Positions 33,787-39,100 of a stretch of 64,000 nt of DNA are shown here, one piece after another. Position numbers and translations under genes: made by a program. The DNA comes from Solobacterium sp. (GTDB lineage: Bacteria > Bacillota_I > Bacilli_A > Erysipelotrichales > Erysipelotrichaceae): contig JAFUFO010000010.1 in assembly GCA_017469885.1 (NCBI GenBank), positions 1 through 64,000 on the forward strand, in the 5' to 3' direction. The notes beneath the pieces were generated by a model. The model ran no database searches. It was not told where the DNA came from and worked only from the letters and a program-made list of their open reading frames with translations. How positions within the stretch are numbered: the first letter of the stretch is position 1; each line of letters starts with the position of its first letter.

Positions 33787-33811
33787 AACTTTCCGAAAGG
33801 AGTATTTTGCC

Positions 33812-35434
33812 TTGTCAACTTATAACGTAAATCTGACACTGGAGAATATCCGAACGATTACGATCATGTTTCTGGATATTTTCATCATGTGGATGGTCCT
33901 ATACAATACGATCCGTCTCGTACAGTCCAATTCAAAGACCGTACAGATTTTTAAGGGCGTTCTGCTGATCCTGATCATTGACTCCTTTGCGACACTGCTC
34001 GGTCTCAAGACCGTCTCTTATGTCACAAATATCTTCATCAACTGGGGATTCCTTGCGATCATCATCATCTTTCAGCCTGAGATACGATCCGTGCTGGAGC
34101 GGCTCGGCAAGACGAATGTATTTACCAGGATCACGACCCTGACCGGAAACGAGAAGGAGAACCTCGTGGATCAGATCGTCACAGCGACGATGCTGCTGAG
34201 CAACGACCAGACCGGTGCGCTGATTTCCATCGAGCAGAGCCATACGCTCGAAGATTTTATTGCGACCGGCACAAAGCTGAATTCCGATGTTACAGCGGAA
34301 CTGCTGACATCTATCTTTGTTACTTCAACACCGCTTCATGACGGTGCGGTTATTATCCGCGGTGACAAGATTGCCTGTGCGAGTGCTTATTTCCCGCCGA
34401 CCAATCTTGAACTGCCGTCCCGCTATGGCGCAAGACATCGTGCGGCGATCGGTATTTCAGAAATCACGGATGCCGTGACAATTGTTGTCTCCGAAGAGAC
34501 CGGTGCGATTTCCATCACGGAAGGCGGCACGATTACAACGGTAAACCGCAAGCAGCTGCGTGATTATCTGCTGCGTGTGATCTGCGGTGAGGAAACGGAA
34601 GTCACTCCGACAAGCCGTCCGAAGCTGAACAATGAAGCTGCTCGTGATGTCATCATTGAAGATACGGAAACGAAGAAGACGGATGAGCAGGTGAAGGGCG
34701 GACTCACCGGAACGATTTCCAAACTGGCCATCAAGCGCCAGGAAGCCAAGCGTGAAAAGATTCCGGTTGAAGCGGTTGTCAACGGTGAAAAGGACAAGGT
34801 GACTCCGGCCAAGGAAGACGCTAATCCGGATGCCGGCATCAAACGTATTGAAGAAGGTGCGCATGACATCAAGCTTCCGCGCAAGAAGGAACGTCCGGTT
34901 CCAAGTTATCCGGAACATTCCGCATCGCATCGGTTTGAAGAAAACAAGCGTGCGGAAATGGAGGCACAGAAGGAACTGGTTCGTGCCAAGGAAGCGGAAA
35001 TGGCAGAGATTCAGCGGGCACGCGAGGAAGCTGCCAAGGATGCTCTTCGCAAGGAAGCGGAGGATCGCGTTCGCCGTGCAGATGAACTGCGGATGCGGGA
35101 ACTTCAGCAGCGTGAAGCCCAGCAGCGCGAGGCACAGCAGCAGGAGGCTCAGCAGCGTGCTGCCGCGGAAACTGCCAATGGAAACCGGCGGATGACTGCT
35201 GAAGAAGTTCAGGCACAGCGTGAAGCTGCCCGCAGACAGCTGTCCGGAAAACCGGAACAGCCGCTAAATCCGAATGGTGTCATCATGGATGACAAATCTC
35301 GTCAGTTCGACACAACCAAGCTGGATCTTTCCAAGATCATGGGCATGAACGATGAACTGACAAAGACATTCCAGATGCTTGATTCACTTGAAGACGGGGA
35401 TAAATCCTCCAAGAAAAAAGGAGGTAACCGATAA
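33812..35434 (+). CDS. cdaA: Diadenylate cyclase CdaA with long C-terminal extension
   Basis: Membrane c-di-AMP synthase, 540 residues against about 270-280 for the family. Three N-terminal membrane helices (about 14-35, 47-65, 70-88) precede the DAC domain, with DGA at 177-179 and RHR at 208-210 intact. From about residue 265 an extra hydrophilic region begins: a Lys/Glu-rich linker, then a predicted coiled coil (about 370-460) rich in Glu/Arg/Gln with tandem QQREA-type repeats, and a final segment (LDLSKIMGMNDELTKTFQMLDSL). The start is TTG with AAAGGAG 9 nt upstream. It overlaps cdaR by one base. Confidence 0.93.
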   Translation: MSTYNVNLTLENIRTITIMFLDIFIMWMVLYNTIRLVQSNSKTVQIFKGVLLILIIDSFATLLGLKTVSYVTNIFINWGFLAIIIIFQPEIRSVLERLGKTNVFTRITTLTGNEKENLVDQIVTATMLLSNDQTGALISIEQSHTLEDFIATGTKLNSDVTAELLTSIFVTSTPLHDGAVIIRGDKIACASAYFPPTNLELPSRYGARHRAAIGISEITDAVTIVVSEETGAISITEGGTITTVNRKQLRDYLLRVICGEETEVTPTSRPKLNNEAARDVIIEDTETKKTDEQVKGGLTGTISKLAIKRQEAKREKIPVEAVVNGEKDKVTPAKEDANPDAGIKRIEEGAHDIKLPRKKERPVPSYPEHSASHRFEENKRAEMEAQKELVRAKEAEMAEIQRAREEAAKDALRKEAEDRVRRADELRMRELQQREAQQREAQQQEAQQRAAAETANGNRRMTAEEVQAQREAARRQLSGKPEQPLNPNGVIMDDKSRQFDTTKLDLSKIMGMNDELTKTFQMLDSLEDGDKSSKKKGGNR

Positions 35435-36855
35435 TGTCAGAAAACAAAGACAGACGGTTCGATAACCAGGAACAGGCAAGCAAAACAGAACTTGCCAACC
35501 GGATTGCCGGCCAGTCCAAGCGTGTCGCCAATACCTATCAGCACATCGGTGACCATGTAGTCCGGATTATCCGCTGGTTCTCATCCTTCATTGATAAAAC
35601 ACTCTTCAACCGCAGATATTCCAAATTCGTATCGCTGATTCTCGCAGTGATGATGTATGCCGTTGTAAATTACAACAGTCGTGCATCTATTTACACGAAT
35701 ACGCTGCGCACGGCAAAAGATTTAAGCAATGTTACGGTTACTGCGAAATACAACGCAGATACCTTTGAACTCTCGGGACTTCCGGAAACCGCGGATATTA
35801 CAATCACCGGTGATGCGACCAGCGTTACCAGTGCCGCCAATGTAGACGGTGTGATCTTCGCAGACCTTGAAGGTCTTACAGAAGGCACCCATGAAGTCAA
35901 ACTTGAAGCAGAAGGCTATGGCGCCAATGTTTCCATTAAAATCGATCCAAGCACTGCTGTGGTTACACTGAAAAAGAAGACCACACAGGCATACGATCTC
36001 AGCTATGACTTCATCAACCTCGATAAGATGGAGAACATCTATTCGGTCGGTACGCCGGTATTTGAATTCACCCGGGTCAATGTTCGTGCATCGAAGGATA
36101 CGCTGAATTCCATCGCGTTTATCAAGGCACTGATCGACGTCACCGGACAGACAGCTGACTTCACACAGGATGCGCGTCTGGTTGCCTATGACGCAAATGG
36201 TCTTCCGGTTGTTGCGGATATCTATCCGTCAACTATTGAGGTTACTGTGCCGGTCACCTCACCGAACAAGACTGTACCGATTGCGGTCGAAGTTACCGGC
36301 GATATTCCGGAAGGACAGGCAATCGACAGTATTGAGATGGATCAGCAGTCCGTTACGATCTACGGTCCGGAATCCGTTCTCGGACAGATCGATCAGGTTG
36401 TCGTAACGCTGAATGCCTCCACCATTACGAAGGATTCGACGATCATGCGTCCGATTACATTGCCGGCAGGAGTCAACTCCAGCAACATCAACCAGATTAC
36501 GGTTTCCATCAAGCTGGCAGAAGGTTCCTCACGGACCATTGACAACGTCAAGATCAATTACCGCAATAACGTCAACAACTACAAGGCTTCCACGTCCGAC
36601 AACAAGACAACGACCAGTGTCACCGTCTTCGGAACGGAAGCGAATATCGCTAATATTACCGCAGATGATATCAATGTTTACGTTGATATGAAAGACGCAA
36701 AGCCGGGTATTCAGGAATTCCCGCTCGAAGTCGAACAGCCGATGGGCGGTCTTGTGAAGTATTCCCTCACAGAACCGACGTTTGAGATGAACGTCCTCGG
36801 CGAGACCAATGATGACGGCGGAAACGGTGATAATGCGGATGTGAATATCGGCTGA
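35434..36855 (+). CDS. cdaR: YbbR-domain regulator CdaR
   Basis: A 473-residue partner of CdaA. A cytoplasmic N-terminus (about 60 residues) precedes one membrane helix (about 66-84); repeated extracytoplasmic YbbR domains follow, recognisable by VTVTAKYNADTFELSGLPETADITITGD and three further copies of this fold. CdaR modulates CdaA from the outer face of the membrane. The ATG shares a base with the cdaA stop and has a strong AAAGGAGG SD. The third gene of the usual operon, glmM, is not here; a terminator follows. Confidence 0.93.
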   Translation: MSENKDRRFDNQEQASKTELANRIAGQSKRVANTYQHIGDHVVRIIRWFSSFIDKTLFNRRYSKFVSLILAVMMYAVVNYNSRASIYTNTLRTAKDLSNVTVTAKYNADTFELSGLPETADITITGDATSVTSAANVDGVIFADLEGLTEGTHEVKLEAEGYGANVSIKIDPSTAVVTLKKKTTQAYDLSYDFINLDKMENIYSVGTPVFEFTRVNVRASKDTLNSIAFIKALIDVTGQTADFTQDARLVAYDANGLPVVADIYPSTIEVTVPVTSPNKTVPIAVEVTGDIPEGQAIDSIEMDQQSVTIYGPESVLGQIDQVVVTLNASTITKDSTIMRPITLPAGVNSSNINQITVSIKLAEGSSRTIDNVKINYRNNVNNYKASTSDNKTTTSVTVFGTEANIANITADDINVYVDMKDAKPGIQEFPLEVEQPMGGLVKYSLTEPTFEMNVLGETNDDGGNGDNADVNIG

Positions 36856-36885: not shown

Positions 36886-36919
36886 AAAGAAACTGAGACA
36901 CGTGCTCAGTTTCTTTTTT
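36886..36919 (+). terminator. cdaA-cdaR terminator
   Basis: Perfect 12-bp stem AAAGAAACTGAG/CTCAGTTTCTTT with a 7-nt loop and T-run. Confidence 0.93.
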
Positions 36920-36949
36920 GTTCGGGCGGTGTGAATGCATATATTCTTG

Positions 36950-36958
36950 TGCTAGAAT
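36950..36958 (+). promoter_or_regulatory. Extended -10 promoter of the two-component genes
   Basis: TGC plus TAGAAT (36953-36958) forms an extended -10 ending 7 nt before the response-regulator ATG. Transcription would start at or next to the A of ATG. Confidence 0.5.
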
Positions 36959-36965
36959 TGAAACC

Positions 36966-37628
36966 ATGAAACGGGTAGTCAGTATTGTAGAGGATGAGCG
37001 CGATCTGAATGAGCTTGTCAAACGATATCTGGAAAAGGAAGGATATGAGGTCCGCTCATATCTGACGTTTGATGATGCCTCGATTCATACCGGTGACGAC
37101 GATGTTCATCTCTGGATCTTGGATATCATGCTGGGAGACAAATCCGGTTTTGATCTGATTGAGGAAATCCGCCGTCAGAATCCGAATGTCCCGGTGATTT
37201 TCATGTCTGCCCGTGACAAGGAATTTGACCGGATCATCGGCCTTGAGAAGGGAAGCGATGACTATATCACCAAACCGTTCTCGCCGAAGGAACTGGTTCT
37301 TCGCGTCAATAACATCATGCGGCGTACATACCGCAATGACAACGAAACAATCACGGTTGATGGCTACCGCATCAACGATGTCAAACGCACCGTTACTGAT
37401 GCGGCAGGGTCGTCGATCGATCTTTCCACGAAAGAATATGAACTCCTGATGATGTTTGTAAAGAACACCGGAACTGCCTTTTCGCGTGAACAGATTCTGG
37501 AACAGGTCTGGGAAACGAATTACTACGGCAGCGACCGGGTGGTGGATGACACCATGCGGCGTCTGCGCAAGAAGATGCCGGATCTGAACATTCATACGAT
37601 CTATGGATTCGGGTATCGGCTTGGCTGA
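36966..37628 (+). CDS. OmpR-family response regulator
   Basis: 220 residues. The receiver domain has the acidic pair in VEDERD, the phospho-acceptor Asp in LWILDIMLGD (about residue 52) and the conserved Lys in YITKPFSPKEL. A winged-helix DNA-binding domain follows, with STKEYELLMMFVKNTGTAFSREQILEQVWE. The ATG at 36966 is preferred over an in-frame TTG at 36918 that lies in the terminator T-run. No SD is visible. The stop overlaps the kinase start (TGATG). Confidence 0.92.
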   Translation: MKRVVSIVEDERDLNELVKRYLEKEGYEVRSYLTFDDASIHTGDDDVHLWILDIMLGDKSGFDLIEEIRRQNPNVPVIFMSARDKEFDRIIGLEKGSDDYITKPFSPKELVLRVNNIMRRTYRNDNETITVDGYRINDVKRTVTDAAGSSIDLSTKEYELLMMFVKNTGTAFSREQILEQVWETNYYGSDRVVDDTMRRLRKKMPDLNIHTIYGFGYRLG

Positions 37629-39100
37629 TGAAACGGATTCGTTTATGGCTGCGGGAGCTTTCCCTGACCCAGCAGCTGGTCACAATTCTTTTTCTCGTAA
37701 TCTCTGTTCTGACGATTTTCATTTTTGCCTTCCTGACTCCAGGTATTAATCAGTTCACCTCCGCCGAAATGTACCGCATGCTGCATGCGGCGCATATCCG
37801 CGCGGCATACTATGTCGATTCTGTGGATCATATCAGTCAGGTCGACTTTTTTGATGAGGAGAACGGCATCATTCATGTCCTCTATGACAATACCGACCGC
37901 TCATTCGGCGGACATGCCGGCGAGGCAGATGAGCTGCTGAGTGATGCGCTGTCGGAAGACATACGCATGCATCTGCCGGAAGCGGCGGACGGAATGAAGG
38001 ACTATCAGTTCGGAGAAACCGGTGGACGCCATACGGTGCTGTATACCATTTCCAGAGTGCAGGACGGGCGTTACCTTGTGACGATGATCTCGTCTGCCGG
38101 AGAATCGCAGTTCCGCAGTATGCTGGTGAACAATATCGTCAATGCGAATATGATGATTGCCATTGTGCTGTTTGTCATTCTAACGGTATGGGTCGCGACG
38201 ATCATCTATCCGCTGAATCAGATCAAGGCATACATCACCAGAATCAAGAATGACGAACCGGTTGAACTGACGGTCAACCGTCACGATGAGATCGGTGAGG
38301 TTGCGGACGCGCTGCGTGAAATGGACAGCGAACTGCAGAAACAGAACCGGGAAAAACAGGAGATGATACAGAACATCTCCCACGATCTTAAGACGCCGAT
38401 TGCGACCATCCGCAGTTACGGAGAATCCATTAAAGACGGCATCTATCCGTACGGAACCCTGGAGAAATCCATTGACGTGATCATTGAACATGCCGACCGG
38501 CTCGAGAAGAAAGTACGCTCCCTGATTGCGCTGAACAAGATGGGGTATCTACTGGATGACTGTGAGGAAGGGGATACGCTTGTCATGTCGGAAGTCATCG
38601 ACAAGGCTTTGCTTTCGCTGAAGGTCATCCGTCCGGAAATCACCTTCCGGCGGGAACTGGATAAGGGCGTGAAGTTCCATGGCGATGAGGATCCCTGGCG
38701 CATCGTTGTTGAGAATCTTGTCGATAATGCGCTGCGATATGCGGTTACGACGATCACCATTGAACTGCATCCAGGTGAACTTAAAGTAATCAACGACGGA
38801 AAACCGATCGATAAAGAGCGTATCTCAAAACTGTTCCACCCGTACGAAAAGGGTACGGATGGGCAGTTTGGCCTTGGCCTTTCCATTGTCTATAAAATCG
38901 TCACAACCTATGGCTACCGCATTGAAGCGGAGAATCTTGCGGACGGCGTATGTTTCCGGATCTGGAAGGAACTTCCGAGGAAGGAAATCCGCGCAATTCA
39001 AAAGGAAAAGAAGAAAGAAGAACGCGAGAAAGCAAAAGAGATCCGCCGGATGGAACGCCAGGAGAAGAATGAACGCAGGAACAGTCCTCCGGAGTCTTAA
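37628..39100 (+). CDS. Membrane sensor histidine kinase
   Basis: 490 residues. Two membrane helices (about 16-38 and 175-197) bracket an extracytoplasmic sensor domain of about 135 residues. HAMP (about 198-250), HisKA with the phospho-accepting His in NISHDLKTPIATIRSYGES, and an HATPase domain with N-box VENLVDNALRY and GLGLSIVYKIV follow. A strongly charged tail of about 35 Lys/Glu/Arg residues closes it. It partners with the overlapping response regulator. The stimulus is unknown; next to cdaAR and a Mur-like ligase, a cell-envelope signal is plausible but unproven. Confidence 0.92.
   Translation: MKRIRLWLRELSLTQQLVTILFLVISVLTIFIFAFLTPGINQFTSAEMYRMLHAAHIRAAYYVDSVDHISQVDFFDEENGIIHVLYDNTDRSFGGHAGEADELLSDALSEDIRMHLPEAADGMKDYQFGETGGRHTVLYTISRVQDGRYLVTMISSAGESQFRSMLVNNIVNANMMIAIVLFVILTVWVATIIYPLNQIKAYITRIKNDEPVELTVNRHDEIGEVADALREMDSELQKQNREKQEMIQNISHDLKTPIATIRSYGESIKDGIYPYGTLEKSIDVIIEHADRLEKKVRSLIALNKMGYLLDDCEEGDTLVMSEVIDKALLSLKVIRPEITFRRELDKGVKFHGDEDPWRIVVENLVDNALRYAVTTITIELHPGELKVINDGKPIDKERISKLFHPYEKGTDGQFGLGLSIVYKIVTTYGYRIEAENLADGVCFRIWKELPRKEIRAIQKEKKKEEREKAKEIRRMERQEKNERRNSPPES

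Follow-up and report, generated by a model that had tools for sequence, protein, structure and literature searches.

A family-wide cytoplasmic tail with conserved short motifs on the diadenylate cyclase CdaA of Erysipelotrichaceae, a possible tether for a cytoplasmic partner

Diadenylate cyclases of the CdaA/DacA type (TIGR00159), described from B. subtilis, S. aureus and L. monocytogenes, combine an N-terminal transmembrane domain with a DAC domain carrying DGA and RHR motifs, are encoded in the order cdaA-cdaR and are the only DAC protein of their genome. In the cdaA-cdaR-glmM operon of other bacteria GlmM ties c-di-AMP synthesis to cell-wall synthesis. We analysed a cdaA gene in a 64,000-nucleotide stretch of Solobacterium sp. 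DNA (contig JAFUFO010000010.1, positions 1 to 64,000; hereafter the window), which shares all of these CdaA/DacA features and, with the operon, the translational joining of cdaA to cdaR. In class relatives outside Erysipelotrichaceae the protein stops soon after the DAC domain, whereas the window CdaA adds 274 residues with conserved motifs. The features of the locus are as follows.

33796-33802: AAAGGAG, Shine-Dalgarno sequence of cdaA, with the TTG start 9 nt downstream
33812..35434, plus strand: cdaA, 540 aa, TTG start, a single open frame without internal stop
33869..34084, plus strand: CdaA_N transmembrane domain, aa 20-91 (Pfam PF19293, E 7e-7)
34184..34531, plus strand: DAC catalytic domain, aa 125-240 (Pfam PF02457, E 2e-38), DGA and RHR motifs intact
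34610..35431, plus strand: C-terminal cytoplasmic tail, aa 267-540, 41% charged, net charge +2, free of Cys
35434..36855, plus strand: cdaR, YbbR family (PF07949, E 3e-36), its start overlapping the cdaA stop

The protein scores 234.2 bits against NCBIfam TIGR00159 (cut-off 188.8), has CdaA_N followed by a DAC domain with DGA and RHR, is the one DAC protein of its genome and is followed directly by cdaR. Judged by its sequence it is a complete, standard membrane-anchored CdaA diadenylate cyclase and a predicted maker of c-di-AMP. The same genome encodes a GdpP-type phosphodiesterase, and a search of it for the c-di-AMP riboswitch RF00379 found none, despite the presence of cyclase and GdpP-type enzyme. 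Solved CdaA structures align to the window protein up to about aa 258, and since homology ends there the tail is taken as approximately aa 267-540. An earlier reading of the locus made from the letters alone (the sequence-only reading) had proposed a 270-residue extension in frame after the DAC domain, which is borne out as a 274-residue tail uninterrupted by a stop. Its view that cdaA and cdaR are translationally joined also holds, as the stop codon of cdaA shares nucleotides with the ATG of cdaR (TAATG) and a GGAGGT lies inside the end of cdaA.

The check named by the sequence-only reading was a comparison of CdaA lengths across relatives, with short relatives as the case against it, and the relatives turned out to be long. 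CdaA was found in all 40 genomes of our first search, with frames of 425-646 aa in genus relatives (23 genomes, G009 being cut by a contig end) and 265-323 aa in another family of the same order (16 genomes); the tail is present in 22/22 of the full-length genus relatives first drawn, and a wider draw within the genus gave frames of 375-444 aa as well. Across Erysipelotrichaceae 137 of 145 genomes had a CdaA match, with frames of roughly 304-657 aa that are graded by genus, the lone 269-aa frame (L157) being cut by a contig end. In a wider draw on the rest of the class, the CdaA frames listed outside Erysipelotrichaceae reach at most 315 aa and none has the tail, and the 36 loci that matched a tail pattern in a collection of species genomes all bear the title Solobacterium or Erysipelotrichaceae/Erysipelotrichia. 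Loss of a stop codon or an error of assembly is rejected as the origin of the tail, as long frames occur throughout the genus and family and in several single-contig genomes; a long frame is also present in a record that is not titled as a MAG (L059). The tail appears to be undescribed so far: a search of the open-licence full-text literature for a C-terminal extension or disorder of CdaA, or for CdaA in Erysipelotrichaceae, found no earlier account of it.

No Pfam or NCBIfam family matched the tail above cut-off, nor did any solved structure in the PDB (best E 0.22). An alignment of 22 tails resolves it into short conserved blocks between unconserved spacers that vary in both length and content, the conserved set comprising IKLPxKK, PSYP, RMTxEEV and FDTTKLDISKIVG. 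The counts given below refer to 42 distinct genus tails, and those for M1, M2, M4 and M5 hinge on the regular expressions chosen.

34718..34744, plus strand: motif M1, SKLAIKRQE, in 34/42 tails
34754..34777, plus strand: motif M2, EKIPVEAV, in 35/42 tails by a loose pattern
34868..34912, plus strand: motif M3, IKLPRKKERPVPSYP, the best conserved, with IKLPxKK in 42/42 and PSYP in 40/42 tails
34922..35179, plus strand: charged helix, aa 371-456, a variable spacer and probably a single alpha-helix (AF2 pLDDT 92-98 over most of it)
35105..35159, plus strand: QQREA tandem repeats within the helix, 15-nt unit, 3.7 copies
35186..35242, plus strand: motif M4, RRMTAEEVQAQREAARRQL, a short helix, in 36/42 tails (RMTxEEV type)
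35306..35395, plus strand: motif M5, FDTTKLDLSKIMGMNDELTKTFQMLDSLED, in 37/42 tails (DTxxLDIS type), cleanly deleted in L015
35420..35425, plus strand: GGAGGT, Shine-Dalgarno sequence of cdaR, in frame with a near-invariant Gly-Gly of the tail and also present in tail-less relatives

M3 is the sole motif well shared past the closest genera, IKLPxKK recurring in 16 of 67 other family tails longer than 60 aa. Other Erysipelotrichaceae genera carry different motifs, so the tail as a trait spreads wider than any single motif; some of their tails have none of M1-M5, and the tail may therefore serve several functions or no common one. The tail is under purifying selection: between the window and its nearest relatives Ka/Ks, where calculable, is 0.02-0.07 for the enzyme core, 0.02-0.15 for the motifs and 0.08-0.28 for the whole tail. 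The terminal Gly-Gly is rejected as a conserved protein motif, as its codons are the cdaR Shine-Dalgarno sequence and occur without a tail too. The extent of the tail given by the sequence-only reading (aa 267-540) stands, and the Gly-Gly part of its 'distinct terminal segment' is the ribosome-binding site of cdaR.

The AF2 model of CdaA, built from just 30 close sequences and with a core too poor (pTM 0.27) to speak for or against docking on the DAC domain, shows one long helix standing by itself in a tail that is otherwise poorly ordered. The tandem QQREA run had been recognised correctly from the letters, and its copy number and unit vary among relatives. The coiled coil proposed along with it did not survive: even in the best heptad register, hydrophobics fill 20% of the a and d positions against 21% in shuffled sequences (p=0.78). 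The helix has instead an excess of opposite-charge pairs at i+3/i+4 (34, versus 18.0 ± 3.4 by chance), and the helices of five relatives agree (six tested in all). Together with the predicted helix this is the signature of a single alpha-helix; aa 371-456 thus look like a charged single alpha-helix of ~86 residues. Such tethers have been misread in this way before, INCENP being an example with the same salt-bridge signature (PMC4571873). Like these, the window helix is long, rich in E, R, K, Q and A, free of heptads and was first called a coiled coil; it differs in belonging to a bacterial membrane-bound cyclase, in occurring in some relatives only (13 of the 42 genus tails have a helix of this charged type and 29 do not) and in being known from sequence and prediction.

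Together these data suggest that the CdaA tail is a flexible tether whose motifs dock a putative cytoplasmic partner, and that it places or regulates c-di-AMP synthesis, a reading to which we assign a probability of roughly 0.55. In this model a mostly disordered or extended, lineage-specific tail has been added to an ordinary CdaA and would present conserved short linear motifs, with IKLPxKKxRPxPSYP at their core, at distances from the membrane that vary; the charged helix would set the motif spacing in the clade of the window. The CdaA-CdaR complex may recruit one or more cytoplasmic proteins through these motifs, in which case the tail would act as a tether and the docked partner might position or regulate c-di-AMP synthesis. 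The near-invariance of the motifs, the variation of the spacers and the retention of the tail in every full-length genus relative first drawn are consistent with this. The sequence-only reading had offered a tether and coiled-coil oligomerisation side by side, and conserved motifs on variable spacers fit the former and not the latter.

With the tail joined straight to the DAC domain and its motifs conserved, these could also fold back on that domain or on the dimer interface and tune activity in cis. We consider such autoregulation unlikely, as a contact in cis would not need spacers so unequal that tails range from ~90 to 390 aa.

The tail could likewise be tolerated disorder, a growing low-complexity sequence of little specific function that reflects a tendency of the lineage towards charged or disordered C-termini. 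Low-hydrophobicity ends of at least 40 aa occur in 10 of 206 sampled ORFs of the window genome and in 0 of 108 from a genome belonging to a different family of the order, and the repeat run differs in copy number. However, ends of at least 150 aa are found in only 1 of the 206 ORFs, the motifs are conserved over 42 divergent tails, Ka/Ks is low and the tail persists through Erysipelotrichaceae, making this explanation improbable as well.

A partner might instead lie within the complex itself. CdaR of Erysipelotrichaceae has a cytoplasmic N-terminus of 50-60 residues that carries ELAxxIAxQSxKV.

35482..35604, plus strand: cytoplasmic N-terminal helix of CdaR, KTELANRIAGQSKRVANTYQHI..., before the transmembrane segment (AF2 helix 17-57, moderate confidence), its motif conserved in the family

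Binding of the CdaA tail to this helix, whose ELAxxIAxQS motif typifies the family, was assessed by count and by tree. Among the 115 family loci scored first, every locus with a tail of at least 70 aa had a CdaR motif score above 37, and all but one of those with tails under 70 aa scored ~32 or less; in the tree, tail and CdaR motif are both absent from a clade with short tails that branches within the long-tail genera. However, the tree, in which long branches leave the placement of L166, L151, L152 and L138 unsure, gives only two supported independent tail/CdaR-motif pairs, and the association is therefore without significance. Exceptions run both ways, with the CdaR motif beside short tails in L148 (32 aa) and L142 (53 aa) and a decayed motif beside tails in L133 and L143, and a related CdaR N-terminus (L185, 25.7 bits) accompanies a tail-less CdaA outside Erysipelotrichaceae. 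In published work, moreover, CdaA meets CdaR through the CdaA transmembrane region (PMC6368335). The two-way exceptions and tail-less carriers weaken the CdaR N-terminus as a strict tail partner and leave the putative partnership weakly supported; with only two independent pairs in addition, direct binding is kept as a rival and is quite unlikely. Equally doubtful is the idea that tail and CdaR helix together would form a family-specific cytoplasmic scaffold coupling c-di-AMP synthesis to a new partner. In loci L025-L030, from another family of the order, the CdaR N-terminus bears another conserved motif, D[ST]TT[DE]FFL, and CdaA is without a tail.

Finally, pairing of CdaA molecules through a coiled-coil helix that controls cyclase activity via DAC oligomers would draw on the confidently predicted 86-residue helix and on the reliance of DAC activity on higher oligomers (PMC8573169), but is very improbable given that none of the six helices is enriched in heptad hydrophobics and that most genus tails lack this helix.

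The tether reading leaves glmM to be considered, which the sequence-only reading had noted as missing from the operon. This is true of the window, where cdaR is followed by a response regulator and then a histidine kinase with no adjoining glmM, and no GlmM scored above cut-off in the window assembly (G000, 95.7% complete) or the near-identical G533, through either loss or an assembly gap. In G022 a HAD gene and aroG flank glmM, and the same HAD-aroG junction in G000, G533 and G001 has no glmM; no canonical GlmM was found in the two near-identical assemblies (G000 and G533; loci L173, L182 and L183). A tie to the tail is rejected: counted by the GlmM active-site motif, glmM lies 3′ of cdaR at 18/33 genus loci and 43/47 other family loci, with CdaA tails of varied length. 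Most tailed relatives thus still have glmM after cdaR, so the tail does not stand in for this linkage, and unlinking is an event separate from the tail. Two further proteins have extended ends of their own. At 36918-39100, where many relatives place glmM, the histidine kinase that follows the response regulator has a charged low-hydrophobicity end of ~48 aa, and at L182:2130-3221 a HAD-type protein has a long KPEKPVKEE-type C-terminal tail exceeding that in G022.

Erysipelotrichaceae are common in animal guts. Many Gram-positive bacteria cannot do without c-di-AMP, and it is unclear what besides GlmM and CdaR controls CdaA (PMC8573169, PMC13289029). The tail, family-wide and with a near-invariant motif of 15 residues, is a ready bait for a further protein that may control CdaA.
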